DNA of 47,320 nt, taken from contig JABXHQ010000074.1 of NCBI GenBank assembly GCA_013373545.1, positions 1 through 47,320 on the forward strand, given 5' to 3'. The notes beneath the pieces are model-generated. The model saw nothing but the letters and a program-made list of their open reading frames with translations, did not search any database and was not told the DNA's origin. Every line of letters starts with the position of its first letter. The stretch's first letter is position 1. Below are positions 1,449-38,991 of the stretch, piece by piece. A program made the position numbers and the translations under genes. Source of the stretch: Gammaproteobacteria bacterium. Its GTDB lineage: Bacteria; Pseudomonadota; Gammaproteobacteria; Enterobacterales; Kangiellaceae.

Positions 1449-1910
1449 ATGAATATGCCAAAACCAGAACTCATCGAACAACTGGCAGAAACCTTTGCTG
1501 AAAAAGTCCCTTTCAATAAATTACTGGGACTGACGTTTACAGAATTGGATCGTGAAGTCTGTGTGGTTAAATTTCATAACAAACCCGATTTAGTCGGAAA
1601 TTATATTCAAGGTATTTTACATGGTGGCGTTATCGCTAGCGCCATTGATGTGGCCGGCGGTACTATGGCAGCGTTAGGACTAATGCAAAAAAATCCTGAA
1701 AGTCATCCCGAGGAACTGCTCGATAAATTGTCACGCTTGGGCACCATTGATTTACGCATCGACTATGTTCGTCCCGGGCGTGGTGAATGGTTTGAAACGA
1801 GCGCTCGTATTCTGCGAGTTGGCAACAAAGTTGCCGTTGTTAGAATGGAGTTGCACAACGAGAGCAATACATTAATCGCTTTAGGAACGGGCACCTATTT
1901 AGTTGGATAA
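1449..1910 (+). CDS. PaaI/YigI-like hotdog-fold thioesterase
   Basis: A 153-residue single hotdog-fold protein. The central segment LHGGVIASAIDVAGG (about 57-71) is the classic hotdog helix motif, with His58-Gly-Gly and Asp67 as the likely thioester-cleaving site. The ending RVGNKVAVVRMEL...LIALGTGTYLV is typical of PaaI/YigI-like acyl-CoA thioesterases. The chain has the usual length. The start could also be the ATG six bases downstream. rarD follows after five bases, so the two are probably cotranscribed. The physiological acyl-CoA is not visible from sequence. Confidence 0.87.
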   Translation: MNMPKPELIEQLAETFAEKVPFNKLLGLTFTELDREVCVVKFHNKPDLVGNYIQGILHGGVIASAIDVAGGTMAALGLMQKNPESHPEELLDKLSRLGTIDLRIDYVRPGRGEWFETSARILRVGNKVAVVRMELHNESNTLIALGTGTYLVG

Positions 1911-1915
1911 TAGCC

Positions 1916-2812
1916 ATGACAATGACCGAACAAAAACAAGGTTATTTAGCCGCATCAATGGCCTACATTTGGTGGGGCTTAGCTCCTATTTATTTTAAAG
2001 CCTTGCATCATGTTGCGGCGATGGAAATTTTAATGCATCGGATTGCTTGGTGTGTGCCGACAGTCATTTTAATGATGTGGATTCTCAAGCAACCTTTGGC
2101 TATCCGCGCGGTCTGGAAAAACCAAAAGGTCTTTTGGGCGCTGGTACTTAGTACCGTGTTGGTTTCAAATAACTGGTTTATTTTTACTTGGGCTGTGGTT
2201 AATGATCGTGTGCTCGATACTAGCTTGGGTTATTTTATTAATCCGTTGCTCTCAATTTTGCTCGGCGTCGTTTTGTTAAAAGAAACCATGAATAAATGGC
2301 AGTGGTTTGCGGTGGCCGTCGCGGCATTAGCGGTTGCTTATCAAATAATTATGTTGGGTCAAGTTCCCTGGCTATCCCTGGCTCTTGCACTGACTTTTGC
2401 GCTCTATGGGTTGGTAAGAAAGCAAACTGCGGTTGATTCATTAAACGGTCTGCTGGTTGAAACTTTGATCGCTTTCCCTGTCGCTTTTATTTTTATCAGC
2501 TATCAATTAGGCCAGCCGCAGTCTAGCTTTTTAAATGTTGGTATTGAAACTGACTTGCTACTAATGGCAGGTGGATTAATTACGGCTACGCCATTAATTT
2601 TATTTGCTATTGGTGCTAAACGACTGCCGCTGTTTGTAATAGGTTTCTTGCAGTTTATCGCGCCTACCATGACTTTCATCTTAGCGATTGTTGTTTATCG
2701 AGAGCCGTTTAATTTTGATAAAGCAATTACCTTTGGTTTAATTTGGTTAGCGCTTGCTATATATATTGTTGATGGATTAATTAAGCGGCTGCGCCGCCGC
2801 AAAGCCGCTTAA
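1916..2812 (+). CDS. rarD: RarD protein, EamA/DMT-superfamily transporter
   Basis: A 298-residue inner-membrane protein with about ten hydrophobic segments and the RarD N-terminal signature GYLAASMAYIWWGLAPIYFK, followed by EILMHRIAW. It belongs to the drug/metabolite transporter superfamily. RarD is associated with chloramphenicol sensitivity in Pseudomonas, but its natural substrate is not established. The C-terminus ends in a positive cluster (KRLRRRKAA), and its last codons form the left part of a terminator hairpin shared with the convergent TonB-receptor gene. The five-base gap to the thioesterase gene suggests one transcript. Confidence 0.9.
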   Translation: MTMTEQKQGYLAASMAYIWWGLAPIYFKALHHVAAMEILMHRIAWCVPTVILMMWILKQPLAIRAVWKNQKVFWALVLSTVLVSNNWFIFTWAVVNDRVLDTSLGYFINPLLSILLGVVLLKETMNKWQWFAVAVAALAVAYQIIMLGQVPWLSLALALTFALYGLVRKQTAVDSLNGLLVETLIAFPVAFIFISYQLGQPQSSFLNVGIETDLLLMAGGLITATPLILFAIGAKRLPLFVIGFLQFIAPTMTFILAIVVYREPFNFDKAITFGLIWLALAIYIVDGLIKRLRRRKAA

Positions 2813-2817
2813 TTAAT
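2776..2817. terminator. Bidirectional hairpin terminator between rarD and the TonB receptor
   Basis: The arms ATTAATTAAGCGGC (2776-2789) and GCCGCTTAATTAAT (2804-2817) are perfectly complementary over 14 bases, with a 14-base loop and A/T-rich ends on both strands. It overlaps the last codons of rarD and sits just before the end of the convergent receptor gene, so it can end both transcripts. Confidence 0.8.
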
Positions 2818-2824
2818 TTTCTAA

Positions 2825-5113
2825 TTAAAATTGATAGCGGACCCCTGCTAGCCAATTTCGTCCTGCTCGCGGTGCAAGATCTTTGATAAATGAAGCGTGA
2901 TCACGCGCTTCTTCGTCTAATAAATTCTTACCTCGCAAGAACAACAAAGTTTCGGAACCTTTATTGTTAATTCGATAAGCGACTTCTAAGTCCATAATGG
3001 TAAAGCCATCGGTAGGCAATTCATTGATAGCTTGTTTGTCTTGCTTACTGTAGCGAACAATATTCAGGTCGGCGAGCAGATTATCTCGATCAAAATGCAA
3101 AGCGGCACCCAATTTCATTGGTGGGATACGCGGTAGGTAAGCGCCATTTTCTAGCTCTGCTTCAATAAAGTCTGCCATTAGCCCCAGTGATAAACCAAAG
3201 GCTTGATCGTCGACCAAGGGCACTTTCACCTGAATTTCAACACCACGAATCGCTGCGTCGTCTTGGCGATATTGGACGACCGGCAAGTCGGGATCAATAA
3301 AGATTATTTGGCCATTGAGATCAAGTACAGCACCATTATTGGCTACGTAATCGCCATAAATAAAACCATTAAACTGATTCCAGTAAGCATTGATCTCACC
3401 TTCCCACTGGTTGTGGCTAAAGCGGTAGCTAATATCAATATTGTTAGAATGTTCTTCTTCTAACTCAGGATTTCCAATTTCAAAGGTTTGTGTTGCGGCA
3501 TGTTCACCAAACGAAAATCCTTCTTCAACCGACGGATGTCGTTCTGCCCGTGCAAAGTTAAACGCTAATTTGTTACGATCATCGAAAGAGTAAACCGTAC
3601 CTGCGGATAACGAAACACCGGTGCGAGAGCGTGAAGTAAAATTCGAAACTGCTAAATTTTGTTGCTCGATGCGTGCACCTAACTCTACTTTTAATTGATT
3701 GAATGATTTTTCTTCAATCCAAAATAATGACTGCACTTTCGTAGTCGATGGCGGCACGAAAGCTTCTTCGCCAATCGCGGAAAAGTCACGCTCGCTTATT
3801 TGCAAGCCGACAATTCCTTCCCAGCCATCGAGAGGCTGGTGTTGAACAAAACTTCTTAGCTCATAAGCCTCGTTGTTAAACTCGGTTCCAATTTCATCAC
3901 CTTCTAATTCTTGATGCCGGTAATCGGTATAAGAAGCACCAATAAACCAGCGTGCAATATTTTTGCTAGGTGCGTTAATTTCTGACTGTAAGTCGTAACG
4001 AGTTTGGTTAAGATCAATGGCCACACCCTCTTCAGCATGAGGCTCGGCCGCCGGCTCTTCCTCTTCGTGCTCTCCATGCCCTGGAACACCATAAAGTTTA
4101 TTGATTCGATTGACTGAAAAACCAAGGTAGCCCCAATTATTGTTGTAAGTAAGACCGAAGCTGCCACCATTGCTATCGGCAAAACTGTTTTCTAAAGTTG
4201 TGGATCCTGCATGCTCTTCTTCCTCGCCTTCCAGCTCGAGTAAATAATGTGACTCAGCATGACTAGGAATAGTCATATCATCGTATTCACTGTTATAGCC
4301 GTCTAGGTGCCATGCCCAGCGGCTATTGCCGCCGTTCAGAGTGGCAACGATTGATCGCTCTGACGTGGCACTGTCGCCAAGTCGCAGTTCTGCGCCACCA
4401 CTTAGACCGATATTCCCTGACGGATTAATTTTAGCGTCAGTAACATTCACTACGCCACCAATTGCTCCGCTGCCGTAAAGCAAGGTTGCGGGTCCTTTGA
4501 TTACCTCAATCTGATCAACTAATAATGGCTCAACTGACACATCATGATCGGCTGAAGTTGTCGAAGCATCTTGCAGCGTCATTTGATTAATGGTCATTAA
4601 CACGCGCCCGCCAGAAAGGCCACGAATAACCGGGCGTGATACTGCCGGGCCAAATGAAGAGACGCTCATGCCGGGTTCAAGCTTTAATATGTCTCCAAGG
4701 CCACTGGCTCTTTTTAACGTGAGTTCGTCACCGGACAAGACTATTGCAGGCGCTGCCATATCCAGTCTGGTGTGCTCAAGAGGGTTAGCAGTGATTACTA
4801 ACTTACGATCATGGTTGTCATCGATATGTACAATTTCCGGTGATTGTTGCGCCGTATCACTGACGACTATCGACTGGTGAAAGTGACCCTGATTGCCAGC
4901 TTTAATGTCTAGGGTATAAGTACCAGCAGCTAAATCGAGGGTGAAGTTTCCATTATCATCACTGCGCGTTTCGACATTGGTGCCGCGTACGACAATCTGT
5001 GCGTTAATGATGGGATTTTGCGAATGGTTAACCAGCTTGCCGCTAAATTGTGCAGCGCCAATATAGCTAGCACTGACTAATGTGCTGGCCAAAAAGATAG
5101 TCCGAATATTCAT
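2825..5113 (-). CDS. TonB-dependent outer-membrane receptor, metal-uptake (ZnuD-like) type
   Basis: An outer-membrane beta-barrel receptor of 762 residues if started at the ATG at 5113, which has an AGGT ribosome-binding sequence and directly begins a signal peptide (MNIRTIFLASTLVSA..GAA); an in-frame ATG at 5140 would add nine residues. Order: signal peptide, a carboxypeptidase-regulatory-like beta sandwich (about 25-85), plug domain (SGDELTLKRASGLGDILKLEPG; RPVIRGLSGGRVLM; EVIKGPATLLYGSGAIGGVVN), then the barrel ending LAGVRYQF with terminal Phe. Two extracellular-loop-like stretches at about 280-300 and 345-365 are rich in Glu and His (ELEGEEEEHAG; GEHEEEEPAAEPHAEEG), as in zinc or other divalent-metal receptors such as ZnuD. 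An upstream small Cys/His protein supports metal uptake. Zinc is my best guess; copper or nickel cannot be excluded. Confidence 0.85.
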   Translation of the reverse strand: MNIRTIFLASTLVSASYIGAAQFSGKLVNHSQNPIINAQIVVRGTNVETRSDDNGNFTLDLAAGTYTLDIKAGNQGHFHQSIVVSDTAQQSPEIVHIDDNHDRKLVITANPLEHTRLDMAAPAIVLSGDELTLKRASGLGDILKLEPGMSVSSFGPAVSRPVIRGLSGGRVLMTINQMTLQDASTTSADHDVSVEPLLVDQIEVIKGPATLLYGSGAIGGVVNVTDAKINPSGNIGLSGGAELRLGDSATSERSIVATLNGGNSRWAWHLDGYNSEYDDMTIPSHAESHYLLELEGEEEEHAGSTTLENSFADSNGGSFGLTYNNNWGYLGFSVNRINKLYGVPGHGEHEEEEPAAEPHAEEGVAIDLNQTRYDLQSEINAPSKNIARWFIGASYTDYRHQELEGDEIGTEFNNEAYELRSFVQHQPLDGWEGIVGLQISERDFSAIGEEAFVPPSTTKVQSLFWIEEKSFNQLKVELGARIEQQNLAVSNFTSRSRTGVSLSAGTVYSFDDRNKLAFNFARAERHPSVEEGFSFGEHAATQTFEIGNPELEEEHSNNIDISYRFSHNQWEGEINAYWNQFNGFIYGDYVANNGAVLDLNGQIIFIDPDLPVVQYRQDDAAIRGVEIQVKVPLVDDQAFGLSLGLMADFIEAELENGAYLPRIPPMKLGAALHFDRDNLLADLNIVRYSKQDKQAINELPTDGFTIMDLEVAYRINNKGSETLLFLRGKNLLDEEARDHASFIKDLAPRAGRNWLAGVRYQF

Positions 5114-5145
5114 TTTTGATACCTGTTTTTTAATCATCAATTAGC

Positions 5146-5172
5146 ACGCGCTCAAAGTCGTATTGAGTGCGT
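5146..5172. promoter_or_regulatory. Intra-operon hairpin between the small zinc-type protein and the TonB receptor
   Basis: ACGCGCTCAA (5146-5155) pairs with TTGAGTGCGT (5163-5172) over ten bases with a single G-T wobble and a seven-base loop. It lies between two same-strand genes and is not followed by a T-run on the minus strand. It could therefore set processing or relative expression rather than full termination. Confidence 0.4.
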
Positions 5173-5197
5173 TAATAGTGGTTTTAAAGATTAGGAA

Positions 5198-5479
5198 TCA
5201 AACAGTAGGTGGCGCTCGCGGCGGTGGTAGTAACCGCAGGGGCAGCACGACTATCGCGCTTGCAGAAGGTTTATTGAGCGGCTGTTCTTGCGCAGGCGCG
5301 TTGATAAATGCGACCGGCGCAACACTCAGTTCATCTAGGTTCTTGTGGTGATGAAGACACCACTCACAGGTTGCGCCGAGCTCATGCTGTTCGCTAAAGA
5401 CGTGATCGATTGCTGCTAACTGAACCGAGGTCCACAGCAGTATCAAACAGCCTATTAGTCGAATTTGATTGAGTTTCAT
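5198..5479 (-). CDS. Small exported Cys/His-rich protein, likely metal-uptake accessory
   Basis: A 93-residue protein with an N-terminal hydrophobic signal or anchor (about 6-23), then HVFSEQHELGATCEWCLHHHKN, which holds a CxxCxxHHH-like metal-binding cluster. The tail is Pro-rich (LPPPRAPP). It resembles the short proteins annotated as DUF2946-like or as zinc chaperones of zinc-uptake systems, which often sit beside TonB-dependent metal receptors. It is upstream of and codirectional with the receptor gene, so the two probably form an operon. The family assignment comes from the cluster, size and context only. Confidence 0.6.
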   Translation of the reverse strand: MKLNQIRLIGCLILLWTSVQLAAIDHVFSEQHELGATCEWCLHHHKNLDELSVAPVAFINAPAQEQPLNKPSASAIVVLPLRLLPPPRAPPTV

Positions 5480-5665
5480 TGCAAAAGTTTGTGCCCAAGA
5501 AAAACGGTTTGAGTAGCAGTCTTTTATAACTGCGCAATAATGTCATTCTTTTTTGCTCTGATCAATATTCAAAACCACGTAAATTGTGAACAAAAATTTC
5601 GCCATGACAATCGCGTAAAAATGTCTATTATTGATCTAAAGGTAGAACAAATTGGGTGGTTACTA

Positions 5666-6388
5666 ATGTTAGCGATTCCTGTGGTGGATATCCGTTCAGG
5701 GCGCTGCGTTCATACCCACAACGAAGCATCGCGACAGAAAGTGATAATGGACGATCCCACCGAGGTGTTTTCGGCGTTGGTAGAGCAAGGCGCAACACAA
5801 GTCCAAGTCGTCGATGTCGATGCAATTCGCAATCGTCAGCCCGAACACCTCTCTTTAATCAGCCGAATGAAACGTGAGTTCCCGCAATTGAAGCTGCAAG
5901 TAAGCGGCGGTGTTGGCTGTAGTGAAGATATTCAAATTTGGCTCGATGCCGGTGCCGATTGGGTTACCGTTGGTGGCCGTTTATTGCGCCAACAAGACAC
6001 TTTGGAGTTAATTCTAGTTGAGCTTGGTGAGCACATCATAGTTGGCATGGATGTACGTGCTCAGTTGTGGCGCGACGGTTACTGCCCTGCGGTCAATATG
6101 AGCTTTGATGACTGGGTAACCGCGCTAAGCGATGAGGGTGTCGCCGCATTGATGTTCACGGAGATACCCGAGCAAGGTCACGTTAATGGTCATAGTTTAA
6201 TGGCGGCCGGTCAGCTTGCTTCGAGTATTGAGCTGCCCGTGATTGCACACGGTGGTATTCAGTCTCGCCTCGATTTGGAAAATCTAGCGGGCCCTGCCTA
6301 TCAAAAACTGCATGGGGTAACGGTAGGAAAACCATTATTTGAAGGATGCTTCACTTTTGGTGAAATGGTTTCAGTACTCACTCACTGA
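5666..6388 (+). CDS. Orphan HisA-like phosphoribosyl-isomerase-family TIM barrel
   Basis: A 240-residue protein starting at MLAIPVVDIRSGRCV. The frame extends 42 codons further upstream, but that stretch does not fit the family, and HisA/HisF proteins begin exactly at this first beta strand. Hallmarks: Asp8 in IPVVDIRSG, the phosphate-site glycines in QVSGGVG, the second catalytic-type Asp in IIVGMDVR, FTEIPEQGHVNG in place of the HisA DISRDG loop, VIAHGGIQS, and the C-terminal GVTVGKPLFEGCFT. HisA interconverts ProFAR and PRFAR in histidine synthesis. There are no other his genes around, and several loops diverge from true HisA, so a different phosphoribosyl or related substrate is possible. 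Transcription is divergent from the zinc-type small protein and convergent with the CRP-family gene. Confidence 0.75.
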   Translation: MLAIPVVDIRSGRCVHTHNEASRQKVIMDDPTEVFSALVEQGATQVQVVDVDAIRNRQPEHLSLISRMKREFPQLKLQVSGGVGCSEDIQIWLDAGADWVTVGGRLLRQQDTLELILVELGEHIIVGMDVRAQLWRDGYCPAVNMSFDDWVTALSDEGVAALMFTEIPEQGHVNGHSLMAAGQLASSIELPVIAHGGIQSRLDLENLAGPAYQKLHGVTVGKPLFEGCFTFGEMVSVLTH

Positions 6389-6396
6389 ATAAGCGA

Positions 6397-6425
6397 GTTA
6401 CCGCACCTACCAAGAGTGCGGTAAC
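6397..6425. terminator. Hairpin between the HisA-like and CRP-family genes
   Basis: GTTACCGCAC (6397-6406) and GTGCGGTAAC (6416-6425) are perfect ten-base arms with a nine-base loop. They are flanked by AAGC and GCTT, which extend the stem past a small bulge. The hairpin lies between two convergent genes and overlaps the last codons of the CRP-family gene. A bidirectional terminator is the natural reading. Confidence 0.7.
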
Positions 6426-7090
6426 GCTTTGTTGATGACGATCAGTCCATCTTCCATTGATATATAATTGCCAGTTCTTAGATCTTTAAGAATTCGTGCG
6501 ACCATTTCTCTTGAAGCACCCACGCGACTGGCAATGTTCTGCTGAGTTAATTTCTCGCGAATAATCCATTTGCCATCGTACTCTTCTGCCATGTTTAAAA
6601 ACGTCACGACAATTCGTCGATAGACATCCATAAGGCCGAGTTTGCGAATGGTTTCTGTGGCTTCTCGCAACCGTGTGACTAAGTTGTGCATGAGGGTCAT
6701 GGAAAACTCTGGATACATCGACATGAGCTTGCGAAATTCTTGCTCGTTAAGAATGCCCAGTTTAGCATCTTCGAGAGTGGTGACCGACGCAGTGCGCGGG
6801 ATCCCTTCAATTAACCCCAATTCACCAAAAAATTGCCCTTTCTCGTGAATATTCACCACTATTTCCTTGCCTGAATCGTCATCAAGGTATACTTTGACGC
6901 GACCATCCAAGATAAAATACATGCTGTGAGACGGATCGCCCTCGACAACAATTTGTGTTTTCTTGGGAAATTGTCGGTAGTGCAACAATTGACTGATCTC
7001 TTTGATCACCGCACTATCAAGGTCTTTGAATATCGGAAACTCGGATAATTCCATAAAATATCTGCTCTGTATTCGGCTAACTTCAAACAT
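6407..7090 (-). CDS. CRP/FNR-family transcription regulator (cyclic-nucleotide-binding type)
   Basis: A 227-residue regulator with an N-terminal cNMP-binding beta barrel (about 15-130), a dimerisation helix (about 130-155) and a winged helix-turn-helix (about 160-215). The phosphate-binding cassette GELGLIEGIPRTASV keeps the Glu and Arg that in E. coli CRP contact the cAMP ribose and phosphate, with Thr for the following Ser. There is no FNR-type cysteine cluster. The recognition helix SREMVARIL keeps the Arg-Glu...Arg set of CRP, so a TGTGA-type half-site is plausible. An internal ATG at residue 13 (MELSEFPIF) is an alternative start. It could be Vfr-like, but the pair of features is not unique to cAMP sensors. 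It is a single gene, facing away from the Sel1 gene. Confidence 0.85.
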   Translation of the reverse strand: MFEVSRIQSRYFMELSEFPIFKDLDSAVIKEISQLLHYRQFPKKTQIVVEGDPSHSMYFILDGRVKVYLDDDSGKEIVVNIHEKGQFFGELGLIEGIPRTASVTTLEDAKLGILNEQEFRKLMSMYPEFSMTLMHNLVTRLREATETIRKLGLMDVYRRIVVTFLNMAEEYDGKWIIREKLTQQNIASRVGASREMVARILKDLRTGNYISMEDGLIVINKALPHSW

Positions 7091-7288: not shown

Positions 7289-7822
7289 ATGACCGTTAGA
7301 CTCATAGGGATCTTATGCTTAATAGTGGGGAGTTTTGCGTTTGCGAGTAGCAATAGCTATCGCCAAGGCGGAACCTCTATCTATTTTACTCAGCTGGGGC
7401 ACTTGAAGCACCAGGCTGAGCTTGGCGATCCTAACGCACAATTCCTGTTGGGTAACCTTTATTTGTCGCCACCTTCCGACACATCGGTTAGACAGAACTT
7501 ACCCAAAGCGGCGGAGTATTATTTTCAAGCCGCGGTACGTGATCATGCCGGCGCACAGTACAACTTAGGTGTTATGTATTTTCGCGGTACCGGTGTTGCT
7601 GAGAGTAAAATGATGGCCTCAGTTTGGTTTACGCTGGCTGCCAACAACCAAAGTCCGGTCGCTAAGAATGTGAAAAAGAATGCACAAACCTCTTTGATTG
7701 ACCTTAACGCCACCCTTTCAAGCGACGAAAAACAACAAGCCAAGCAGTGGCTGGACACTATTTCCAAATGGATTCGGGAACAAAATTACCGCCTAGCTCG
7801 GTTACCAGAGCTAAATAGTTAA
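7289..7822 (+). CDS. Exported Sel1-repeat protein
   Basis: A 177-residue protein with a signal peptide (MTVRLIGILCLIVGSFAFAS, cleavage near residue 19-20) and Sel1-like helical repeats at about 38-125: ELGDPNAQFLLGNLYL, KAAEYYFQAAVRDHAGAQYNLGVMYFRG and MASVWFTLAANN. Such solenoids mediate protein contacts in the periplasm or at the envelope. The tail (about 125-177) is helical and polar. Its stop overlaps the stop of the convergent hybrid sensor by four bases. The partner is unknown; the neighbouring membrane sensor with a large periplasmic part is one candidate. Confidence 0.8.
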   Translation: MTVRLIGILCLIVGSFAFASSNSYRQGGTSIYFTQLGHLKHQAELGDPNAQFLLGNLYLSPPSDTSVRQNLPKAAEYYFQAAVRDHAGAQYNLGVMYFRGTGVAESKMMASVWFTLAANNQSPVAKNVKKNAQTSLIDLNATLSSDEKQQAKQWLDTISKWIREQNYRLARLPELNS

Positions 7823-10800
7823 GCGATATTTTCGTCGCTAAGTAAGCGATAGATCCGGTGGGTGTGATTAAAACCTTTAAAGGAAAACTCATCCACAAGG
7901 TCAAAATTAAAATTCGATTCGGCTTGAGCGAAAATTGGATAGCTGACTAATACATCCCCTGGTTCACATAAAGACTGGATACGTGCCGCGAGGTTCACGC
8001 CGCTACCAATTGCGCGAAACACAATCATTTCTTCGGAACCAAAGTTACCCAAAGTGACATAAGATTGATGGATCCCGATGCGCAACTCTAGCGATTGGTC
8101 GAGTCCGGTGGCACGCCATTTTTCCGCCAATTGTGCTATAGATGCTTGCATGGCAACCGCCAACTGCGTTGCTTGTACCGCTTGTGATTCTTTATCGAGG
8201 TGTTCCAGTGCACCAAAAAGTACGACTAAGCCATCGCCGAGGACTTCATTAAGTAAACCGTTATGCGCTGATATAATTCGGCTCATTGAAGATAAAAACT
8301 CGTTCAATACATCGGTTACCGTTTCCGGCTCAAAGCGATCAGAAAACTCAGTGAAACCGACCAAGTCGGCAAATAATACCGAGATACAACGCCGCTCTGG
8401 TTGAATGTCTTTAAAGTTTTCACCATCAATAATGCGCTCCACTAATTGGCGTGGGAAGTAACGTCCCAGCTGATCACAAGTTTGCTCCATCGCCTTTAGG
8501 CGTAGGCTTTCTTCTTGTGCGTGGAATACCCGTCGCAACATCAATAAGTTTGACACGCGAGCCATTAAAATACTGCGATCGATTGGTTTGCTGATGTAGT
8601 CGTTTGCGCCAACCGCTAGTCCAGTATTAATATCCTCCGGTTGATTTTTGGCGGACAATAACAAGATTGGTAATTCGAGTAACGAATGCTGTTGGCGAAT
8701 TTTTTCCGTGGCTTCAAAACCTGACATGCGCGGCATCATGACATCTAAAATGATCAAGTCGTAATCATGACTAAGTACTTTTTCGACGGCCTCTTGTCCA
8801 TCGATGGCTTCGCTAACCCGGTACTGATGCATGGTTAAAAAGTCACTTAGCACTTGGCGGTTTAATGCGTCGTCATCAACAATTAAAATATGCGCTTGCT
8901 GACGATTAGGGTTAGGCTGGGTAATGGAAGCGGGCTTGGCGGGTTTTAACGCCGGCGTCATTACATCGGGCTCTTCGGTAATTGCTGCTGTAGCATTTGG
9001 CAAATTTTGCTCGTCGCTAATGGGCAAAGTAAAGAAAAAAGAAGAGCCCGTATTTTCTTTAGAGCGCACCCAAATCTCACCCTCGTGCAGTTCAATGAGT
9101 TGGCGGGTAACGGCTAGCCCTAACCCGGTACCACTCTTTAAGGTACGTCCAACGTTTTCTAATTGCTCGAATGGTTTAAAAATAACTTTTAATTTGTCCG
9201 AAGCGATCCCAACACCACTGTCTTTTACACAGATCTCGACTCGATTATCAATCACTCGTGCAGTCAGTTCGATGTAACCTTCATCGGTATATTTAATCGC
9301 ATTGCCGAGTAGGTTATACAAAATTTGGCGTAACCGATTCTCATCCGCCAACACCGGCGGTAAAAACTGCGGTAATGAATTAGTCAGCTGTAACTGCTTT
9401 TCTTCGGCTAACGGTTTTAGCAAGTTCATCACAACTTTCGCTGCAACTCGTAAATCGACAGGGCCTTTATTTAGCAGTAATCCGTGATGACGTAACTTTT
9501 TAAAATCTAAGATTTCATTTACTTGATGCGCCAAGCGCTTACCGCTATCGATTATCAAGTTAAGATGACCATAAGCTTTATCGTTTAATGGACCGGCAAT
9601 CCCTTCGCGCAAACTTTCTGCAATACCTATGATTCCATTTAGAGGCGTGCGTAACTCATGCGAAGTATTCGCCAAAAATTCGTCTTTTAATTTATCAACA
9701 CGCAATAAATGTTCATTAATTTCTTGTTGTTCTTTCAACTTTCTAGCATGACGATAAATATAAAAACTAACGACTGAAAGTAACAAAAGTAAGTACAGTG
9801 AGTAAGCCCACCAAGTCGCCCATAGTGGAGGTTTAATGGCAATGTTCAAGGTGTAAACATCTTCAAACCAAATTTCATCGCTGTTGGTCGACTTAAATTC
9901 AAATTGATAGTTACCTGAGCTTAAATTGCCGTATATGGCTGAGTTCTTTCCTTTTATTGTGCGCCAGTCAGATTCATAAGGTAACAAACGATAGGCATAA
10001 GAAATTCGTGATGGTGTTTGTAAATCGAGCGCACTGAACTTTAATTGCAGGTTGTTTTGATCGTGTTCTAAAGTTAAATTTTCAATTGGACTCCATTGGT
10101 TGGGTTGTAATATTGGTTGTCCATTGATTTGAATTTCTGTCAGCACCTTGTTTGGTTTAAATTGGTTTTCACTGATCCCTTTTGGGTTAATTACCGCAAC
10201 GCCCGATACGCTACCAAAATAAAGCAAACCGGAACGAGATTTTAACACTGAATTACCATTGAACTCGTCGGCAGGCAAACCGTCGATGTTGGTAAAGTTC
10301 TTAAAACTTTGAGTGTCAGGATTAAAGCGACTTAAGCCACGGTTTGTGCTAAGCCAAAGGTATCCGGAGTCGTCTGCAACAATTCCGTAAATAGAGTTAT
10401 TCGGCAAACCATCTTTTTCGGTAAAGGAGTAAAACTTAAAGTTGCCGTTAATACGATCTTGTTGCCTTAATAAGTTCAAGCCATTATAAGTTCCAATCCA
10501 AAGGTTACCTTGGTTGTCTTGATAAATTGAACGTACAGTATCATCACTTATACTATTTTCATTATCAATATTGTTGCGAAAGGTTAGCGTTTGTCGAAAT
10601 TCAGGATCGTAACGCTGTAATCCGCTATCCCAAGTACCAAACCACATAATGCCTTGATCATCTTGAAACATCGTATACACAGCTGACGTTCCGAGTTCGC
10701 CGACTGATGCATAGCGGAAATCTTCAATAAGACTGCCATCTTTAGAGTTGAGCAACGCTAGCCCTTCATCGGTTGCAACCCATATATTGTCCATACGATC

Positions 10801-12255
10801 GCGAGTTATTGCGCGAATTCTCGAATTACTAAAGTATCCTTGCAAGAAACTACTGCGATCGAATACTTGGGCGCGATTGGTTGGTCCGTTGGGATCAAAT
10901 CGAGCCACCTGACCTTGTTGATTACCAAACCAAATCTTGCCGCTTTGGTCGAGCGTTAATGCCGTTATTCGATTGCTTACTTCTTTGCCATCTTGATCCA
11001 AAAATCGATTAAAATGTCGATACTCTTGAGTACTTGGATCATAGCGATCAATACCGTTTAGAGTCGCAATCCATAATAGCCCCTCGTCATCTTGAGCAAT
11101 ATTCCAGACAAAGTTATGGGCTAAACTATTATTATCAAACGGAGAGTGTTGTAACCGCGAAAAGTTTTGAAAATAGGGTGTGGTTTTGTTTAACCCGCCA
11201 CCTGCTGTTCCAATCCAGATTTGTCCCGAGCGATCTTCAATAATCGTCCAAACGTCATTAATTGACAGGCTATGATTATCGGCGGCATTACGTTGGAAAT
11301 GAAAAAATTCATTGCTCGCTCTAGGCTTTAAGTTAACACCACCCTGTTCCGTACCGACCCATAAATTGCCTTTTGAGTCGCGCATGATAGTTTGGATGTT
11401 ATTCGAGCTTAACGACCGCGGATCGTTATTATCGTAGGAGAATTGCTTAAAGTCATAATCATTATTGATAAGATGAAAAAGTCCATCGAGTTGGGTGCCA
11501 ATCCAAAGACTATCGTCCTCATCTAAAAATAACGCATTAATTCGAGTCGGTGCGGCAAAATCATCAAAGCGATGAAAAGCTAATTGTTCCGGGTCAAACC
11601 AACTAAGCATATCGGTGGTTGCGACAAATAAGCCATCTTTGCCATCACTGGTAATCGCACTCACGCTACCATTTGGAATGGATTGTGGATCAAGCGGATT
11701 ATGGTAAAAATGAACAAAATTTTGGGTTTGCGGCTGATACAGATTAAGACCGTTAAAGGTTCCTATCCACAGGCGGTTTTGGTTATCTAAGTGAAGCGAG
11801 GTAATTTGATTGTGGCTGAGGCTGTTAAAGTCGCTCGCAGAAGCGGTAAACCGGGTTACGTTTCCAGTGGCCGGGTTAAGTAAGTTTAAGCCACCTTGAG
11901 CAGTGCCTATCCAAAGTAAACCTTGGGGATCCTCGAGTACCGCGGTAATAACGTTACTGGATAAAGAGTTTGCATTTTTCGAGTCATATTTATAAGAGGT
12001 AAACTCATAACCGTCGTATTTGTGCAGACCATCATGGGTGCCTATCCAAAGGAAACCATGGCGATCTTGCAACATGGTGCTAATGGTATTTTGAGGTAAT
12101 CCATCTTGGCTGGTAATGTGATTAAAACTAAGTTTTTCTAAATACTCGTTGCCGCTGACCGGCGGCGCAATAAACGGCAGCCACAAGACGAACACGAAAA
12201 GTGCTAATCGAAGCTTGGAAACTATTTGTGGGCGCGCGGAGAATTTAGAATTCAT
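7819..12255 (-). CDS. Giant hybrid sensor: two propellers, histidine kinase, receiver and class III nucleotidyl cyclase
   Basis: A 1478-residue membrane protein. A signal peptide or anchor (about 15-35) is followed by 14 sensor-propeller repeats of the LWIGT..GL type to about residue 700, enough for two seven-bladed propellers. Then come a Y_Y_Y domain (about 735-805), a membrane helix (about 810-832), the HisKA domain with SHELRTPLNG (His near 866), HATPase with N box (about 987) and GTGLGLAV (about 1043), a receiver (about 1120-1240, phospho-Asp near 1170 in ILDVMMPRMSG), and a C-terminal class III cyclase (about 1285-1470). Both cyclase metal aspartates are present (FADLVGF; GDGLVVLFG), as are the catalytic Asn and Arg in GVNLAAR. 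The usual adenine-selecting Lys is Glu (NEVLGD). The expected role is periplasmic signal to phosphorelay to cyclic nucleotide. It appears monocistronic. Confidence 0.9.
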   Translation of the reverse strand: MNSKFSARPQIVSKLRLALFVFVLWLPFIAPPVSGNEYLEKLSFNHITSQDGLPQNTISTMLQDRHGFLWIGTHDGLHKYDGYEFTSYKYDSKNANSLSSNVITAVLEDPQGLLWIGTAQGGLNLLNPATGNVTRFTASASDFNSLSHNQITSLHLDNQNRLWIGTFNGLNLYQPQTQNFVHFYHNPLDPQSIPNGSVSAITSDGKDGLFVATTDMLSWFDPEQLAFHRFDDFAAPTRINALFLDEDDSLWIGTQLDGLFHLINNDYDFKQFSYDNNDPRSLSSNNIQTIMRDSKGNLWVGTEQGGVNLKPRASNEFFHFQRNAADNHSLSINDVWTIIEDRSGQIWIGTAGGGLNKTTPYFQNFSRLQHSPFDNNSLAHNFVWNIAQDDEGLLWIATLNGIDRYDPSTQEYRHFNRFLDQDGKEVSNRITALTLDQSGKIWFGNQQGQVARFDPNGPTNRAQVFDRSSFLQGYFSNSRIRAITRDRMDNIWVATDEGLALLNSKDGSLIEDFRYASVGELGTSAVYTMFQDDQGIMWFGTWDSGLQRYDPEFRQTLTFRNNIDNENSISDDTVRSIYQDNQGNLWIGTYNGLNLLRQQDRINGNFKFYSFTEKDGLPNNSIYGIVADDSGYLWLSTNRGLSRFNPDTQSFKNFTNIDGLPADEFNGNSVLKSRSGLLYFGSVSGVAVINPKGISENQFKPNKVLTEIQINGQPILQPNQWSPIENLTLEHDQNNLQLKFSALDLQTPSRISYAYRLLPYESDWRTIKGKNSAIYGNLSSGNYQFEFKSTNSDEIWFEDVYTLNIAIKPPLWATWWAYSLYLLLLLSVVSFYIYRHARKLKEQQEINEHLLRVDKLKDEFLANTSHELRTPLNGIIGIAESLREGIAGPLNDKAYGHLNLIIDSGKRLAHQVNEILDFKKLRHHGLLLNKGPVDLRVAAKVVMNLLKPLAEEKQLQLTNSLPQFLPPVLADENRLRQILYNLLGNAIKYTDEGYIELTARVIDNRVEICVKDSGVGIASDKLKVIFKPFEQLENVGRTLKSGTGLGLAVTRQLIELHEGEIWVRSKENTGSSFFFTLPISDEQNLPNATAAITEEPDVMTPALKPAKPASITQPNPNRQQAHILIVDDDALNRQVLSDFLTMHQYRVSEAIDGQEAVEKVLSHDYDLIILDVMMPRMSGFEATEKIRQQHSLLELPILLLSAKNQPEDINTGLAVGANDYISKPIDRSILMARVSNLLMLRRVFHAQEESLRLKAMEQTCDQLGRYFPRQLVERIIDGENFKDIQPERRCISVLFADLVGFTEFSDRFEPETVTDVLNEFLSSMSRIISAHNGLLNEVLGDGLVVLFGALEHLDKESQAVQATQLAVAMQASIAQLAEKWRATGLDQSLELRIGIHQSYVTLGNFGSEEMIVFRAIGSGVNLAARIQSLCEPGDVLVSYPIFAQAESNFNFDLVDEFSFKGFNHTHRIYRLLSDENIA

Positions 12256-12382: not shown

Positions 12383-13681
12383 ATGGCGCAATTGCCCCAG
12401 GCATCGGCTGAAGAGCGCTCGCTTGATGCGGTTCCAAACGCCCCCGATAGACATAAACCGGTTGGGTTTATATTACGCTTAGCAAAAGCGTTACATACTT
12501 ACGGGGTCCCTGCATACGAGTTAGAGACGACTTTATCTGCCTGCGCGCGCAAGCTTGGCTATGGTTTGCAATGTTTGTCGCTGCCAACCAGTATTACGAT
12601 GTCGCTGATGCGCAAAAAGGAACATGTGCAAACCTTCGTGATTCGCGTGGCTCCGGGGGAAGTCCACTTGGATAAACTGCGCCGCGTGAGCGATGTAGCC
12701 CATCAAGTGATGACTGGCGAAATGACGACTGCTGCAGGAGCCGATGAGCTGCACAATATCAATCAGGCACGTCCTTCATACTCTATGTGGTTGGTATTAC
12801 TCGCTTTTGGTTTGGTATCGGCGTCTGTAGGGCGATTATTTGGTGGCGGGCTTAACGAAGTGATCGGCGCTATGTCGGCGGGTTTGGCGCTTGGCATCTT
12901 AACTATTATCTCTGCCCGCATTCCTCTGCTTGCCCACTTGCTACCTGCCACTGCCGCGTTATTGAGCACCCTGGTGGCTTATGTCACGGCGCTTTGGCTT
13001 CCGGGAACCGAAGTCTACATTGCAATTGTGTCTGGACTTATAATTTTATTACCGGGGCTGACGCTAACCATTGCAATGGCTGAACTGGCGACTCAAAACC
13101 TGATGTCGGGTACTGCACGGCTATTTGGCGCTGGCACGGTGTTTATTTTAATGGCGTTTGGTATTGTGATTGGTAACCATCTTGCAGAGGTGTTGTCGCT
13201 GCAAGATGTGGCGATGAATCATCGTGTCACGCCGTTACCCGCATGGACCGAGTGGTTGTCAGTACTGATGGGGTCGATTGCGCTAGTTATTTTATTTCAG
13301 GCGCGCTTAAAAGAGGCAATTTGGGTCATTGCCGGTGGTTTTATTGCCTTTACCGCGACTAAATATGCAGGCCTTTTCTTCAACAATGCCATGACGGCGT
13401 TTATCGGTGCGATTGCGGTGGGCAGTTGCGCGAATCTGGTTTCTCGTTTTAGTGGTGTGCCGGGGGCAACCTTGGTGGTGCCAGGATTTATCATTTTGGT
13501 ACCGGGGTCGGTTGGATTTAAAAGTCTTATGGCGTTAGTCGAACATGATGTCGTCAGAGGACTGGATACGGCATTTAATATGACCCTGGTGGGCATTTCT
13601 TTAGTCGCTGGCTTATTGATTTCATCGCTGGTAACGTTACCCAAAGCTAGTGCTGTTCAAGAGTTAGACACGGAGCTATAA
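12383..13681 (+). CDS. ThrE-family threonine/serine exporter
   Basis: A 432-residue protein with the fused architecture of ThrE: an N-terminal cytoplasmic-facing domain (about 25-130, with GFILRLAKALHTYGVPAYELE and CLSLPTSITMS) followed by about ten membrane segments that cover the DUF1212 and DUF3815 regions (PGLTLTIAMAELATQNLMSGTARL; PGATLVVPGFIILVPGSVGFK). E. coli carries the two halves as separate YjjP and YjjB proteins. The family exports threonine and serine. The start at 12383 has a strong AAGGAG eight bases upstream. A small membrane protein gene follows after two bases. Confidence 0.87.
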   Translation: MAQLPQASAEERSLDAVPNAPDRHKPVGFILRLAKALHTYGVPAYELETTLSACARKLGYGLQCLSLPTSITMSLMRKKEHVQTFVIRVAPGEVHLDKLRRVSDVAHQVMTGEMTTAAGADELHNINQARPSYSMWLVLLAFGLVSASVGRLFGGGLNEVIGAMSAGLALGILTIISARIPLLAHLLPATAALLSTLVAYVTALWLPGTEVYIAIVSGLIILLPGLTLTIAMAELATQNLMSGTARLFGAGTVFILMAFGIVIGNHLAEVLSLQDVAMNHRVTPLPAWTEWLSVLMGSIALVILFQARLKEAIWVIAGGFIAFTATKYAGLFFNNAMTAFIGAIAVGSCANLVSRFSGVPGATLVVPGFIILVPGSVGFKSLMALVEHDVVRGLDTAFNMTLVGISLVAGLLISSLVTLPKASAVQELDTEL

Positions 13682-34524: not shown

Positions 34525-34923
34525 ATGGATAATTCCTTCGAAGGCTTAAAAGCAATGGTAATCGACGACAGCAAAACGATTCGTCGAACCGCAGAAACGT
34601 TATTAAAAAAGGTTGGTTGCGAAGTCGTAACGGCAACTGACGGCTTTGATGCCTTAGCTAAAATTGCTGATCATAAGCCAGATATCATCTTCGTTGACAT
34701 CATGATGCCGCGTCTTGATGGGTATCAGACCTGCGCTTTGATCAAAAACAACAAAGCATTTCAATCAACACCGGTGATTATGCTTTCGAGTAAAGACGGG
34801 CTATTTGATAAAGCAAAAGGTAGAATAGTCGGGTCGGACCAGTATTTAACAAAGCCGTTTAGTCGTGACGAGTTGCTTAATGCAATTCGCTCACACGTGA
34901 GTGGTGCTAAGCAGTCCGCTTAG
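34525..34923 (+). CDS. pilG: Twitching-motility response regulator PilG
   Basis: A 132-residue stand-alone receiver with no output domain. The acidic pocket is DD14-15 (MVIDDSKTIRRT), phospho-Asp58 lies in IIFVDIMMPRLDG, and the switch Ser/Thr and Lys lie in VIMLSSKDG and YLTKPF. PilG is the ChpA target that promotes pilus extension and cAMP production in P. aeruginosa. It is the first gene of the Pil-Chp operon; pilH follows after 52 bases. Confidence 0.95.
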   Translation: MDNSFEGLKAMVIDDSKTIRRTAETLLKKVGCEVVTATDGFDALAKIADHKPDIIFVDIMMPRLDGYQTCALIKNNKAFQSTPVIMLSSKDGLFDKAKGRIVGSDQYLTKPFSRDELLNAIRSHVSGAKQSA

Positions 34924-34975
34924 TATCAAAATTTTTAGAATTGACACAGTTCCTGAAGTAAGAGGGGGATTATTC

Positions 34976-35341
34976 ATGGCACGCGTATTAATCGTAGACG
35001 ACTCGCCTACTGAAACGCATGTTCTTAGCAGCATTTTAGATAAGCATGGACATGAAGTATTGACTGCAGAAAACGGCGAAGCCGGAATCGAAGTCGCGAA
35101 AGCAGAAAAGCCGGACCTCGTTTTGATGGACGTGGTGATGCCGGGTCTTAATGGCTTTCAAGCCACACGGCATCTGAAGAAAGATCCAGAGACTTCGAAT
35201 ATCCCGGTCATTATTGTTACGACCAAAGATCAGGAAACTGACAAAATTTGGGGTATGCGCCAAGGGGCGAAAGATTATCTCACTAAGCCTGTTCAAGAAG
35301 GCAATCTAATGAAGGTTATCAACTCGGTACTTGAAGGATAA
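34976..35341 (+). CDS. pilH: Twitching-motility response regulator PilH
   Basis: A 121-residue single-domain receiver beginning MARVLIVDDSPTETHVLSSIL, with phospho-Asp52 in LVLMDVVMPGLNGFQ, the Thr in IIVTTKDQETDKIWG and Lys in YLTKPV. The KIWGMRQGAKDYLTKPV stretch is typical of PilH. The start at 34976 follows an AGAGGGGGA ribosome-binding sequence; a longer frame upstream is spurious. PilH is the second ChpA target and opposes PilG output or drains phosphate. Confidence 0.95.
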   Translation: MARVLIVDDSPTETHVLSSILDKHGHEVLTAENGEAGIEVAKAEKPDLVLMDVVMPGLNGFQATRHLKKDPETSNIPVIIVTTKDQETDKIWGMRQGAKDYLTKPVQEGNLMKVINSVLEG

Positions 35342-35388
35342 GCTCGAGTAATGTTCGTTCAGAACTTATAAAGGTTAACGACAAAACT

Positions 35389-35931
35389 ATGGTTGAAGCA
35401 GCACACAATCTCGCGTTTGAAATTCTTGCTGATATTGAGCAACGCAGTTATGGCGGTGCAACAGCAGTTCCGCGTTCAGAGCAATCGGGTCGATTCTGGA
35501 CCGGAGTTGGTTTCAGGTTGAATGAGAGTCGTTATGTTGCGCCATTAAAAGAAGTCGCCGAAATATTAAGAATGCCGCAGTTTACCAAGGTTCCCGGTGC
35601 CCGCTCTTGGGTAAAAGGGATTGCCAATATTCGCGGTACTTTGCTTCCGATTATGGATTTGCATGGGTATCTCGGACGCAAAGTCCCCTCTTCCATGCGC
35701 CAGCAACGAGTTTTGGTCATTAACCATAATGGTATCAGTTCCGGCATCGTTGTCGATGAAGTGTTGGGTTTACAGCATTTCGAGGATAGCGAACGGCTTG
35801 GAAACGTCGCTGACGACGATTCCATCATGCCCTATTTATCCGGTCGCTTTGAGCGCGGTGAGGATGAATGGCGAGTGTTCAGCCCTTTTGCTCTGGCAGA
35901 ACACCCTGATTTTATGAAGGTGGCGCTGTGA
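35389..35931 (+). CDS. pilI: CheW-like adaptor PilI
   Basis: A 180-residue protein with a CheW domain at about 45-175: GFRLNESRYVAPLKEVAEILRMPQFTKVPGARSWVKGIANIRGTLLPIMDL, then VLVINHNGISSGIVVDEVLGLQHF. It couples the PilJ receptor to the ChpA kinase. It starts 47 bases after pilH and ends 64 bases before pilJ, all in the same direction. Confidence 0.95.
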   Translation: MVEAAHNLAFEILADIEQRSYGGATAVPRSEQSGRFWTGVGFRLNESRYVAPLKEVAEILRMPQFTKVPGARSWVKGIANIRGTLLPIMDLHGYLGRKVPSSMRQQRVLVINHNGISSGIVVDEVLGLQHFEDSERLGNVADDDSIMPYLSGRFERGEDEWRVFSPFALAEHPDFMKVAL

Positions 35932-35995
35932 GCACTCGCGGTTAAATAGAAGTTCAGTTTAACGTTTTTAAAGTTACGTAGTTGGGAATCAAACT

Positions 35996-38065
35996 ATGAA
36001 TGCACCAGTAAAAGACAAAAATCAAGAAGGTGGGAGTTCCACCCGATTAGTCATATGGCTACTTGGGTTGTTCCTGATTTTAACCATATTCAACCTCTAC
36101 CAAGGTTATCGAACGAGTAACAACGTACAGAGTTGGTCCGAAAAGGCGGAAGATCTGCGGGTATTCTCGCAGCAGGTTGCGAAAAACGCTTCCGAGGCAT
36201 CGAGTGGTAACGCGAATGCCTTTGAGCAATTAAAAGCCGCGGTGGATCAATTTGACTTTTTAATTCGTCAACTTGAAACCGAGCAAGGCGATAATCCGCT
36301 AACCAAAATTGCCTCGACCCCGGATTACATTTCTAACAGCGAATTCCAAACCCTCAAAAGTACGTGGAAAGATGTTAGTGAAGACGCCAAGGTCATTTTG
36401 CAAAGCGAAGAGACGGTAACCGGTCTTTATGAAATTCAAGCGGAATTATCGGCAACGGTTCCGCAAATGCAGTTCTTGTACAATACCGTAAATGACATCA
36501 TGCTCGACTCTGGTGCGTCGGGTGAGCAAACCTTTTACGCGACACGTCAGCTGTTATTTGCCGAACGTATTATCCGTAGTTTCCAAAAAGTATTACAAGG
36601 TGGTGAAGATGCCGCGACCGCTGCTGAGAACTTTGGCCAAGACGTTGAAACCTTTGGTAGTGTTCTCGATGGTATGATTAATGGTGATGCCATGCTCGGC
36701 ATTAACCGAGTGAATAACTCTGAAGCGCGTGCGGCATTAGATGAAATTGCGATTCTGTTCCAAAGCGTTAAAGAGCACGTTGACTACGTAATCCGTAACA
36801 CGGACGCATTATTTAAAGTACAACAAGCGTCAGCACGTATCTTTGACCGTTCGAATAAACTACTCGAGCAGTCTAAAACCTTAGCCGATGCTTATCGTAT
36901 GCACGGTGAGCGTCTCGATGTAACCGGTGGCCATTATTGGTATTCCATCGGCGGTGGCGCGTTGGTTCTCTTCTTCCTCTTGCTTTTGGGTATCCAAATA
37001 CGTCGTGCGGATAAAGTCCAAGAATTACAAGTTCGGGCTCAGGCTGACCGAGAGCGTGAGCAAAATGAACGGAACCAACAAGCGATCATCCGACTTCTTG
37101 ATGAGATGGAAGGTCTGGCAGACGGTGACTTGACTGCAAACGCGACGGTAACCGAGGACTTCACGGGTGCAATTGCGGATGCGATGAACTATACCATTGA
37201 CCAACTACGTTCACTGGTATCGACCATCAACGAATCGGTATCGCGACTTTCTGGCGCAACCGAGGAAACGCAAGGCATCTCGAACGAACTGGCCCAAGCA
37301 TCGAAAAATCAAGCACAGGAAATTACCGGAGCATCGGCTGCGATTAACGAAATGGCCGTGTCGATTGAACAAGTATCTGCCAACGCTGCTGAATCTACCC
37401 AGGTTGCGGAAAAGTCGGTTGATATCGCGAAGAAAGGTTCTGAAGTTGTACGGAACACGATTCGCGGTATGGATACAATTCGTGAGCAAATTCAAGAGAC
37501 CTCCAAGCGGATCAAGCGTCTTGGTGAATCTTCGCAAGAAATCGGGGATATCGTATCTCTGATTAACGACATCTCGGAACAAACAAACATTCTGGCACTT
37601 AACGCTGCGATCCAGGCATCGATGGCGGGTGAAGCGGGTCGTGGTTTCGCGGTTGTTGCGGACGAGGTACAGCGACTGGCGGAACGTTCAGGTAATGCGA
37701 CCAAGCAGATTGAGGCGCTGGTAAAAACAATCCAAACGGACACCAACGAAGCGGTAATCTCGATGGAAGCTTCGACTTCTGAGGTTGTGCGAGGAGCACG
37801 ACTTGCTCAAGACGCGGGTGTTGCTCTGGAAGAAATCGAGCGTGTATCGTCAAGCTTAGCGGAATTAATCCAAAACATATCCAATGCGGCACGCCAACAA
37901 GCAGCGTCTGCAGGTCATGTTTCAAATACGATGAATGTTATCCAGGAAATTACAAACCAAACGTTGCAAGGTACGTTAAATACAGCAAGCAGCATCGGTA
38001 AGCTAGCGGAGCTCGCGGACGAGTTAAGTGGCTCGGTTGCCGGCTTCAAGTTACCGAACTATTAA
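35996..38065 (+). CDS. pilJ: Pilus methyl-accepting chemotaxis protein PilJ
   Basis: A 689-residue receptor. It has a first membrane helix (about 17-40), a periplasmic helical domain with PilJ-type repeats (about 40-310; [24 protein letters not shown]), a second membrane helix (about 312-335), a HAMP-like region (about 335-400), and a long signalling coiled coil. The tip (about 515-565) reads [21 protein letters not shown] and [19 protein letters not shown], where the canonical chemoreceptor tip E-x-G-E-x-G-R is changed to SMAGEAGRG, as in PilJ. PilJ senses pilin or surface contact. Glu/Gln pairs flanking the tip are candidates for PilK methylation and ChpB demethylation. Confidence 0.95.
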
Positions 38066-38090
38066 GTTAGCGTGTAGTACTTAAACGACT

Positions 38091-38969: not shown

Positions 38970-38991
38970 TAAGAAGTAATACGGAGCAGGC

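Follow-up and report, generated by a model that had tools for sequence, protein, structure and literature searches.

What is achieved by a propeller-type hybrid sensor that ends in a nucleotide cyclase, which nucleotide would it make and which protein would read the message? These questions are raised by a gene located at 7819-12255 (minus strand) on a DNA stretch of 47,320 nucleotides from a gammaproteobacterium of the Kangiellaceae (contig JABXHQ010000074.1 of assembly GCA_013373545.1, positions 1 to 47,320), hereafter called the window. The gene encodes a sensor, a histidine kinase, a receiver and a class III cyclase in one chain. We consider it probable that this protein is a transmembrane (TM) sensor-kinase-cyclase which most likely makes cyclic GMP (cGMP) and is paired with a dedicated regulator of the CRP family encoded nearby.

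The gene is a single open reading frame (ORF) with an ATG start and without internal stops. Pfam matches above the cut-offs were obtained for Reg_prop, Y_Y_Y, HisKA, HATPase_c, Response_reg and Guanylate_cyc. The parts of the protein are given below; fractions refer to an alignment of 16 full-length family members.

7819..12255, minus strand: propeller hybrid histidine kinase, receiver and class III cyclase, 1478 amino acids (ORF, Pfam, family alignment)
12148..12255, minus strand: putative N-terminal hydrophobic signal sequence, about residues 1-36 (hydropathy maximum at 11-35)
10111..12138, minus strand: 14 propeller blades, about residues 40-715 (Reg_prop, 14 blade signatures, matches to 4a2l and 3v9f)
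9832..10020, minus strand: Y_Y_Y domain, residues 746-808 (Pfam)
9754..9825, minus strand: predicted single TM helix, about residues 811-834 (second hydropathy maximum)
9490..9687, minus strand: HisKA dimerisation/phosphoacceptor domain, residues 857-922 (Pfam; H866 in 16/16)
9019..9345, minus strand: HATPase_c domain, residues 971-1079 (Pfam; N985, D1012, G1042 and G1046 in 16/16)
8554..8889, minus strand: receiver domain (Response_reg), residues 1123-1234, with the phospho-acceptor D1171 (Pfam; D1127, D1128, D1171, S1201 and K1223 in 16/16)
8395..8553, minus strand: linker between receiver and cyclase, with a predicted helix (1227-1263) out of the receiver and then a short helix (AlphaFold model)
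7846..8394, minus strand: class III cyclase (Guanylate_cyc), residues 1288-1470, with metal-binding D1297 and D1341 and catalytic N1421 and R1425 (all in 16/16) and the base-recognition pair E1337 and R1414 (Pfam, alignments)

A first-pass annotation, made from the letters of the DNA, had already described one chain composed of propellers, kinase, receiver and class III cyclase, and its coordinates are confirmed by the ORF and the order of the Pfam matches. The motifs quoted there (SHELRTPLNG, GTGLGLAV, FADLVGF and GDGLVVLFG) are present in the translation, as are both metal-binding Asp residues of the cyclase. The 14 propeller repeats that it had counted agree with 14 matches to a simple blade-signature pattern, which gave 12-14 matches in the other 15 aligned relatives. 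These blades would make up two seven-bladed propellers. The best PDB sequence matches of the protein were the propeller hybrid sensors 4a2l and 3v9f. Since the two hydropathy maxima fit a signal sequence, presumably cleaved, and one TM helix, the propellers should be periplasmic. Ordinary propeller hybrids were said to end in an AraC-type domain or a receiver, and the contrast with them was corroborated within the same genome, where two of the 10 other Y_Y_Y proteins were scanned and both carry HTH_18. A propeller was also sought in five of the long cyclase proteins listed from the outgroup searches (L146, L180, L181, L182 and L183) and in L145 and L148, and none of the seven contained one.

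To trace the family, the genome and 60 relatives (61 genomes in total) were searched with the linker-cyclase part, close orthologues being defined by bits above 240. Such orthologues were found in 20 of the 61 genomes; at this level, none occurred in the 17 genomes of genus g5. The fusion is one open frame of 1460-1494 codons aligning from end to end in 16 genomes including that of the window, which rules out a chance or misassembled fusion. The alignment excludes G014 and G023, where the gene is frame-broken, as well as G011 and G048, where it is cut by the contig end. Two of the 16 full-length members, the window protein and that of L064, were scanned for Pfam domains. In one search, three of four loci belonged to Pleionea sediminis, P. 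mediterranea and Pleionea sp. CnH1-48, while the fourth, a Bacteroidetes metagenome-assembled genome, gave a 29% match reaching only residue 1242. Identity to the window protein amounted to 35-83% in the sensor, 54-91% in the kinase and 51-91% in the cyclase domain, and to only 25-32% in the linker of ten more distant relatives. The roles of the residues listed above as identical in 16/16 are established for the kinase, receiver and cyclase families and, as far as can be judged from sequence, none points to an inactive kinase, receiver or cyclase. The sensor gene of G014 and G023 (L057 and L063) is distributed over more than one frame, and G014 has a broken CRP orthologue as well; this could be an assembly error or joint decay. 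The sensor frame of L065 (G005) is open for 1493 codons.

The likely product was deduced from the two residues that recognize the base. The cyclase was aligned to five solved cyclases, namely CyaB of Pseudomonas, CyaC of Spirulina (two chains), Cya2 of Synechocystis (2w01) and the engineered phytochrome fusion 6fht. E1337 aligns to Lys in two adenylate cyclases, CyaB and CyaC, as well as in 6fht, and to Glu in Cya2; at the position of R1414, CyaB and CyaC possess Thr and Cya2 possesses Gly. Both residues were invariant in all 17 cyclase domains of the family. For an outgroup, broad searches of 369 and of 398 genomes yielded hundreds of matches, the best of which were made into loci, and all 57 loci (L072-L128) were compared. 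Within these best matches the Glu/Arg pair did not occur (0/57), and Glu at the Lys position was seen in three of them, accompanied by Ala (L080), Asp (L090) or Gly (L092). The outgroup cyclases of L087, L094 and L096 have Arg instead of the base-recognition Lys. The window's genome has two more genes for class III cyclase-like proteins; inspected by eye, these encode Lys/Asp (L066) and Asn at the Lys position with an Asp partner (L067).

In guanylate cyclases Glu replaces Lys, and the second site is C, S, T, H, A or G (PMC4215837). By this rule, E1337 points to GTP. Of the residues typical of class III guanylate cyclases, the metal-binding Asp residues, the Asn and the Arg (16/16) and the first-site Glu were found, and the second-site residue is a different one. 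The preference for GTP is thus extrapolated, because Arg is not among the listed residues. Nevertheless, the product is probably, indeed most likely, cGMP. The unusual pair might also be taken to close the base pocket, so that the domain would no longer make a cyclic nucleotide and would act as a regulatory or dimerisation module. The look of the pocket in the sequence is the one feature that fits this idea, which we consider improbable: the metal-binding Asp and the transition-state Asn and Arg are invariant, the cyclase is nearly as conserved as the kinase, and it has been retained together with a regulator carrying a cyclic-nucleotide-binding domain (CNBD). This regulator is encoded beyond the 3′-end of the sensor gene:

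6407..7090, minus strand: CRP-family cyclic-nucleotide-binding regulator, 227 amino acids, proposed dedicated receptor (Pfam cNMP_binding and HTH_Crp_2, linkage, co-occurrence, pocket)

When the 61 genomes were searched with PF00027, several turned out to have a CRP-like gene close to the cyclase; CRP orthologues were defined by bits above 190. Linkage was analyzed in 19 loci (the window, L049-L065 and L147), in eight of which, distributed over three families of the order, the CRP gene adjoins the cyclase (window, L049-L053, L064 and L147). Over the 61 genomes, cyclase and CRP occurred together in 19, neither in 40 and one only in two. The Fisher test gave a p value of 1.3e-13, which overstates the case as the genomes are related and the gains and losses few.

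The CRP orthologues have kept GE and the Arg of the site for the ribose and cyclic phosphate, and the Crp-type helix-turn-helix (HTH) is present. In the C-helix, the residues corresponding to Thr127-Ser128 of CAP are Ala-Thr (Ala144 and Thr145 in the window) in 20 of 20 orthologue rows (L149-L168). Canonical Crp rows revealed Thr-Ser in 24/24, some being one gene fetched twice. L145 (Leu-Ser) and L130/L169, a single gene without either pattern, entered neither count. The CRP relative of L169 (G052), 38% identical, lies on a contig without any of the cyclase matches listed for its genome. For comparison, Clr of S. meliloti, which responds to cyclic AMP (cAMP) and cGMP, has Thr-Thr at this pair (PMC10127613), and the Ser128 position is occupied by Glu in the cGMP receptor XC_0249 and by Asn in the cUMP-reading PycTIR (PMC11224242). 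Hence Thr at this position, compatible with cAMP or cGMP, argues against a uracil reader of the PycTIR type. As the recognition helix, SREMVARIL, is close to that of canonical Crp, the DNA site of the regulator may be similar to the canonical one.

A related arrangement was found in outgroup genome G197 (L145, 4606-7961). It encodes an 857-amino-acid kinase-receiver-cyclase with a Gln/Thr pair, whose N-terminal part is different and without a Pfam match, and a divergently adjoining CRP (41.6% identical). From this arrangement, the module of kinase-receiver-cyclase and CRP may be older than the propeller sensor.

Several observations weigh against a cGMP pathway read by this regulator. Besides the second-site Arg, which falls outside the published list (C/S/T/H/A/G, PMC4215837), the best-scoring solved cyclases by sequence were adenylate cyclases. 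Thr145 of the CRP fits cAMP as well; in XC_0249, a receptor for cGMP, this position is Glu (PMC11224242). No CRP was found beside the cyclase in 11 of the 19 loci, one of which, L065, stops 1.3 kb beyond the gene and allows no verdict. G005 contains the cyclase without the CRP and G025 the CRP without the cyclase, these assemblies being 73% and 82% complete. The CRP of L145 is linked to the cyclase despite the Gln/Thr pair, so that CRP linkage alone does not imply cGMP. A CRP-type site, TGTGA-N6-TCACA, was sought in 370 bases around the start of the sensor gene in 18 loci, some of these windows being approximate as frames were taken from stop to stop, and no match was better than in shuffled sequence (shuffle fractions 0.12 to 1.0); autoregulation through such a site is therefore unsupported. 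Finally, the linker between receiver and cyclase is weakly conserved and modeled with low confidence.

Some of these points would suit a phosphorelay-gated adenylate cyclase, in other words a propeller-sensing CyaC, that supplies cAMP to the general Crp, the neighboring CRP being another cAMP receptor. The top-scoring solved cyclases are CyaB and CyaC, CyaB ranks first by fold too, and the neighboring CRP retains a hydroxyl residue at the Ser128 position of CAP. However, the adenine-contacting Lys is replaced by Glu in 17/17 domains and its partner Thr by Arg, and Thr127 of CAP is Ala in 20/20 CRPs of the neighbor type. Moreover, the same genome encodes a class I adenylate cyclase and a canonical Crp (L131), so that a second source of cAMP is not needed. 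We regard an adenylate cyclase as unlikely, with a chance that is minor yet larger than that of any other alternative considered here.

Alternatively, the Glu/Arg pair could yield another nucleotide, e.g., a cyclic pyrimidine as in Pycsar, or a relaxed mixture. The pair is unlike that of all 57 outgroup loci compared, and PADLOC models of PycC matched the cyclase (best 2.2e-23, with no cut-off given by PADLOC) and Pycsar effector models the CRP. The class III and CNBD folds that these proteins have in common would lead one to expect such matches. BcPycC reads UTP with residues that include an acidic one, D94 (PMC11224242), whose position may or may not be that of E1337. The CTP-reading residues of EaPycC, Arg and Gln at positions -4 and -2 of the second metal-binding Asp, are Glu and Leu here, the uracil-reading Asn of PycTIR (CAP Ser128) is Thr (PMC11224242), and the partner is an HTH regulator, with no TIR or TM effector. 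Membership in Pycsar was rejected on the effector type and the receptor residue, and another nucleotide or a relaxed mixture appears to us to have only a slim chance.

Returning to the preferred reading of a cGMP-making sensor paired with its CRP, we propose the following course of events. A periplasmic ligand or condition would act on the two propellers and the Y_Y_Y domain, and the signal, passing one TM helix, would alter autophosphorylation at H866. The phosphate would be transferred to D1171 of the fused receiver, which would switch a homodimer of the class III cyclase via the helical linker, whether by raising or by lowering its activity. The cyclic nucleotide, most likely cGMP, would then bind to the CRP encoded at 6407-7090 and thereby affect the transcription of a putative regulon, in a channel separate from the cAMP-Crp pathway of the genome. 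An intramolecular phosphorelay to the cyclase was also envisaged by the first-pass annotation. This part of its proposal fits the invariant residues and the precedent of CyaC, whereas gating, ligand and periplasmic input can be stated only conditionally. The same annotation left ATP and GTP side by side as substrates and missed the GTP-type E1337, the co-occurring CRP and the existing kinase-receiver-cyclase fusions.

An AlphaFold model of residues 1110-1478 (mean pLDDT 83.1, pTM 0.54) showed a receiver fold and a cyclase fold. A helix (1227-1263) leads out of the receiver, with pLDDT values of 59-75 in the blocks spanning 1240-1289. In the PDB, the model matched CyaB first, then 6fht, CyaC and Cya2, followed by the receiver-GGDEF proteins WspR, DgcR and PleD. 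The poor conservation of the linker in the ten distant relatives would agree with a receiver that feeds or drains another response regulator, the sensor controlling the cyclase directly through the conformation of the kinase; either product would be compatible with this. On the other hand, five receiver residues are fully conserved, the predicted helix runs from the receiver towards the cyclase, and the receiver-diguanylate cyclases WspR and PleD are among the fold matches. We therefore give such a receiver a small chance only and favor gating of the cyclase by the fused receiver.

More specifically, the locus may constitute a private second-messenger channel of Gammaproteobacteria, in which a propeller-driven Glu/Arg guanylate cyclase makes cGMP and a co-evolved CRP, its pocket having moved away from the cAMP type, reads it; the channel would be insulated from and parallel to CyaA-cAMP-Crp. 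This we put forward tentatively, with a confidence that falls somewhat short of even. Propeller hybrid sensors are known as one-gene DNA-binding switches; here, the same type of sensor would broadcast by way of a diffusible messenger. Bacterial cGMP signalling rests on few worked systems, to which the named Pleionea strains could add a conserved and compact pair of cyclase and CRP. The Glu/Arg pair would provide a new rule for the choice of the base by class III cyclases, and two parallel cyclase-CRP channels per cell would allow a direct test of insulation.

Two further genes of the window adjoin the sensor gene:

7289..7822, plus strand: Sel1-repeat protein encoded between the sensor and CRP genes, convergent with the former and overlapping it by 4 bases (Pfam Sel1)
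12383..13681, plus strand: threonine/serine exporter ThrE, in divergent orientation to the sensor gene (Pfam ThrE)

The Sel1-repeat gene was found in all eight CRP-linked loci. Of the neighbors tested, ThrE is the most conserved: 15 of 18 loci have it in divergent orientation to the sensor gene (L061, L063 and L064 lack it). It is the prime candidate for a functional connection, although no feature of the sensor accounts for one. On the other side, a HisA-like protein (5540-6388), well under the curated HisA cut-off, adjoins the CRP in 8/8 CRP-linked loci. Farther away, 34525-45681 (plus strand) encodes two receivers, CheW, a PilJ-type methyl-accepting chemotaxis protein and a 2229-amino-acid CheA-like protein with several HPt domains. 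Judged by its gene content, this is a type IV pilus chemosensory cluster similar to PilG/H/I/J-ChpA. A cluster of this kind controls cAMP in P. aeruginosa.

Among known systems, cyanobacterial CyaC (Spirulina/Anabaena) comes closest, as it unites kinase, receiver and class III adenylate cyclase in one chain. Autophosphorylation and phosphotransfer have reportedly been studied with this protein. The window protein shares with CyaC the order HisKA-HATPase-receiver-class III cyclase, and the CyaC cyclase is among its top matches in sequence and fold. It differs in that CyaC makes cAMP with a Lys/Thr pair, whereas the window protein has a propeller sensor, Glu/Arg and a co-occurring CRP. In its mode of action it would resemble CyaC and the cGMP system of Rhodospirillum centenum described below. 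We assigned it neither to CyaC, as the adenine Lys is missing, nor to the proven guanylate cyclases, as the second-site residue does not belong to the published set and the product is predicted only. CyaB and Cya2 resemble it in the class III catalytic domain, Cya2 also in the Glu at the Lys position, but the partner is Gly in Cya2 and the pair is Lys/Thr in CyaB. A comparable kinase-receiver-propeller input is not known for either. As to the input of CyaC, its phosphorylation and activation are purportedly due to a phytochrome kinase-like protein (PMC4284465).

The propeller sensors of the hybrid two-component system type (4a2l, 3v9f) correspond to the window protein in the Reg_prop blades, Y_Y_Y, TM helix, HisKA, HATPase and receiver; they end, however, in an AraC HTH (2/2 scanned in the genome), while the window protein ends in Guanylate_cyc. 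In Rhodospirillum centenum, guanylyl cyclase subunit genes are clustered with that of CgrA, a cGMP-using CRP homologue (PMC4681086). This clustering is similar, but according to the same source sensor and cyclase are not one chain there. XC_0250 of Xanthomonas is a class III guanylate cyclase linked to the cyclic-nucleotide-binding receptor gene XC_0249 (PMC3770947). XC_0250 is without the catalytic Asn/Arg and possesses TPR repeats, and its receptor carries GGDEF.

Other kinase-receiver-cyclase fusions were seen in L145 and, with extra relay domains, in L181. The latter (1640-7060), from another gammaproteobacterium, encodes a CHASE8-HAMP-kinase-receivers-HPt-cyclase protein of 1807 amino acids, a long phosphorelay ending in a cyclase, and L182 and L183 contain FIST-GAF-cyclase proteins of about 1295 amino acids. 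A search of the literature retrieved no known system joining all features of the window protein, which is no proof that none is in print. While kinase-receiver-cyclase fusions are already known, the propeller input, the Glu/Arg pair and the proposed dedicated receptor form a new combination.

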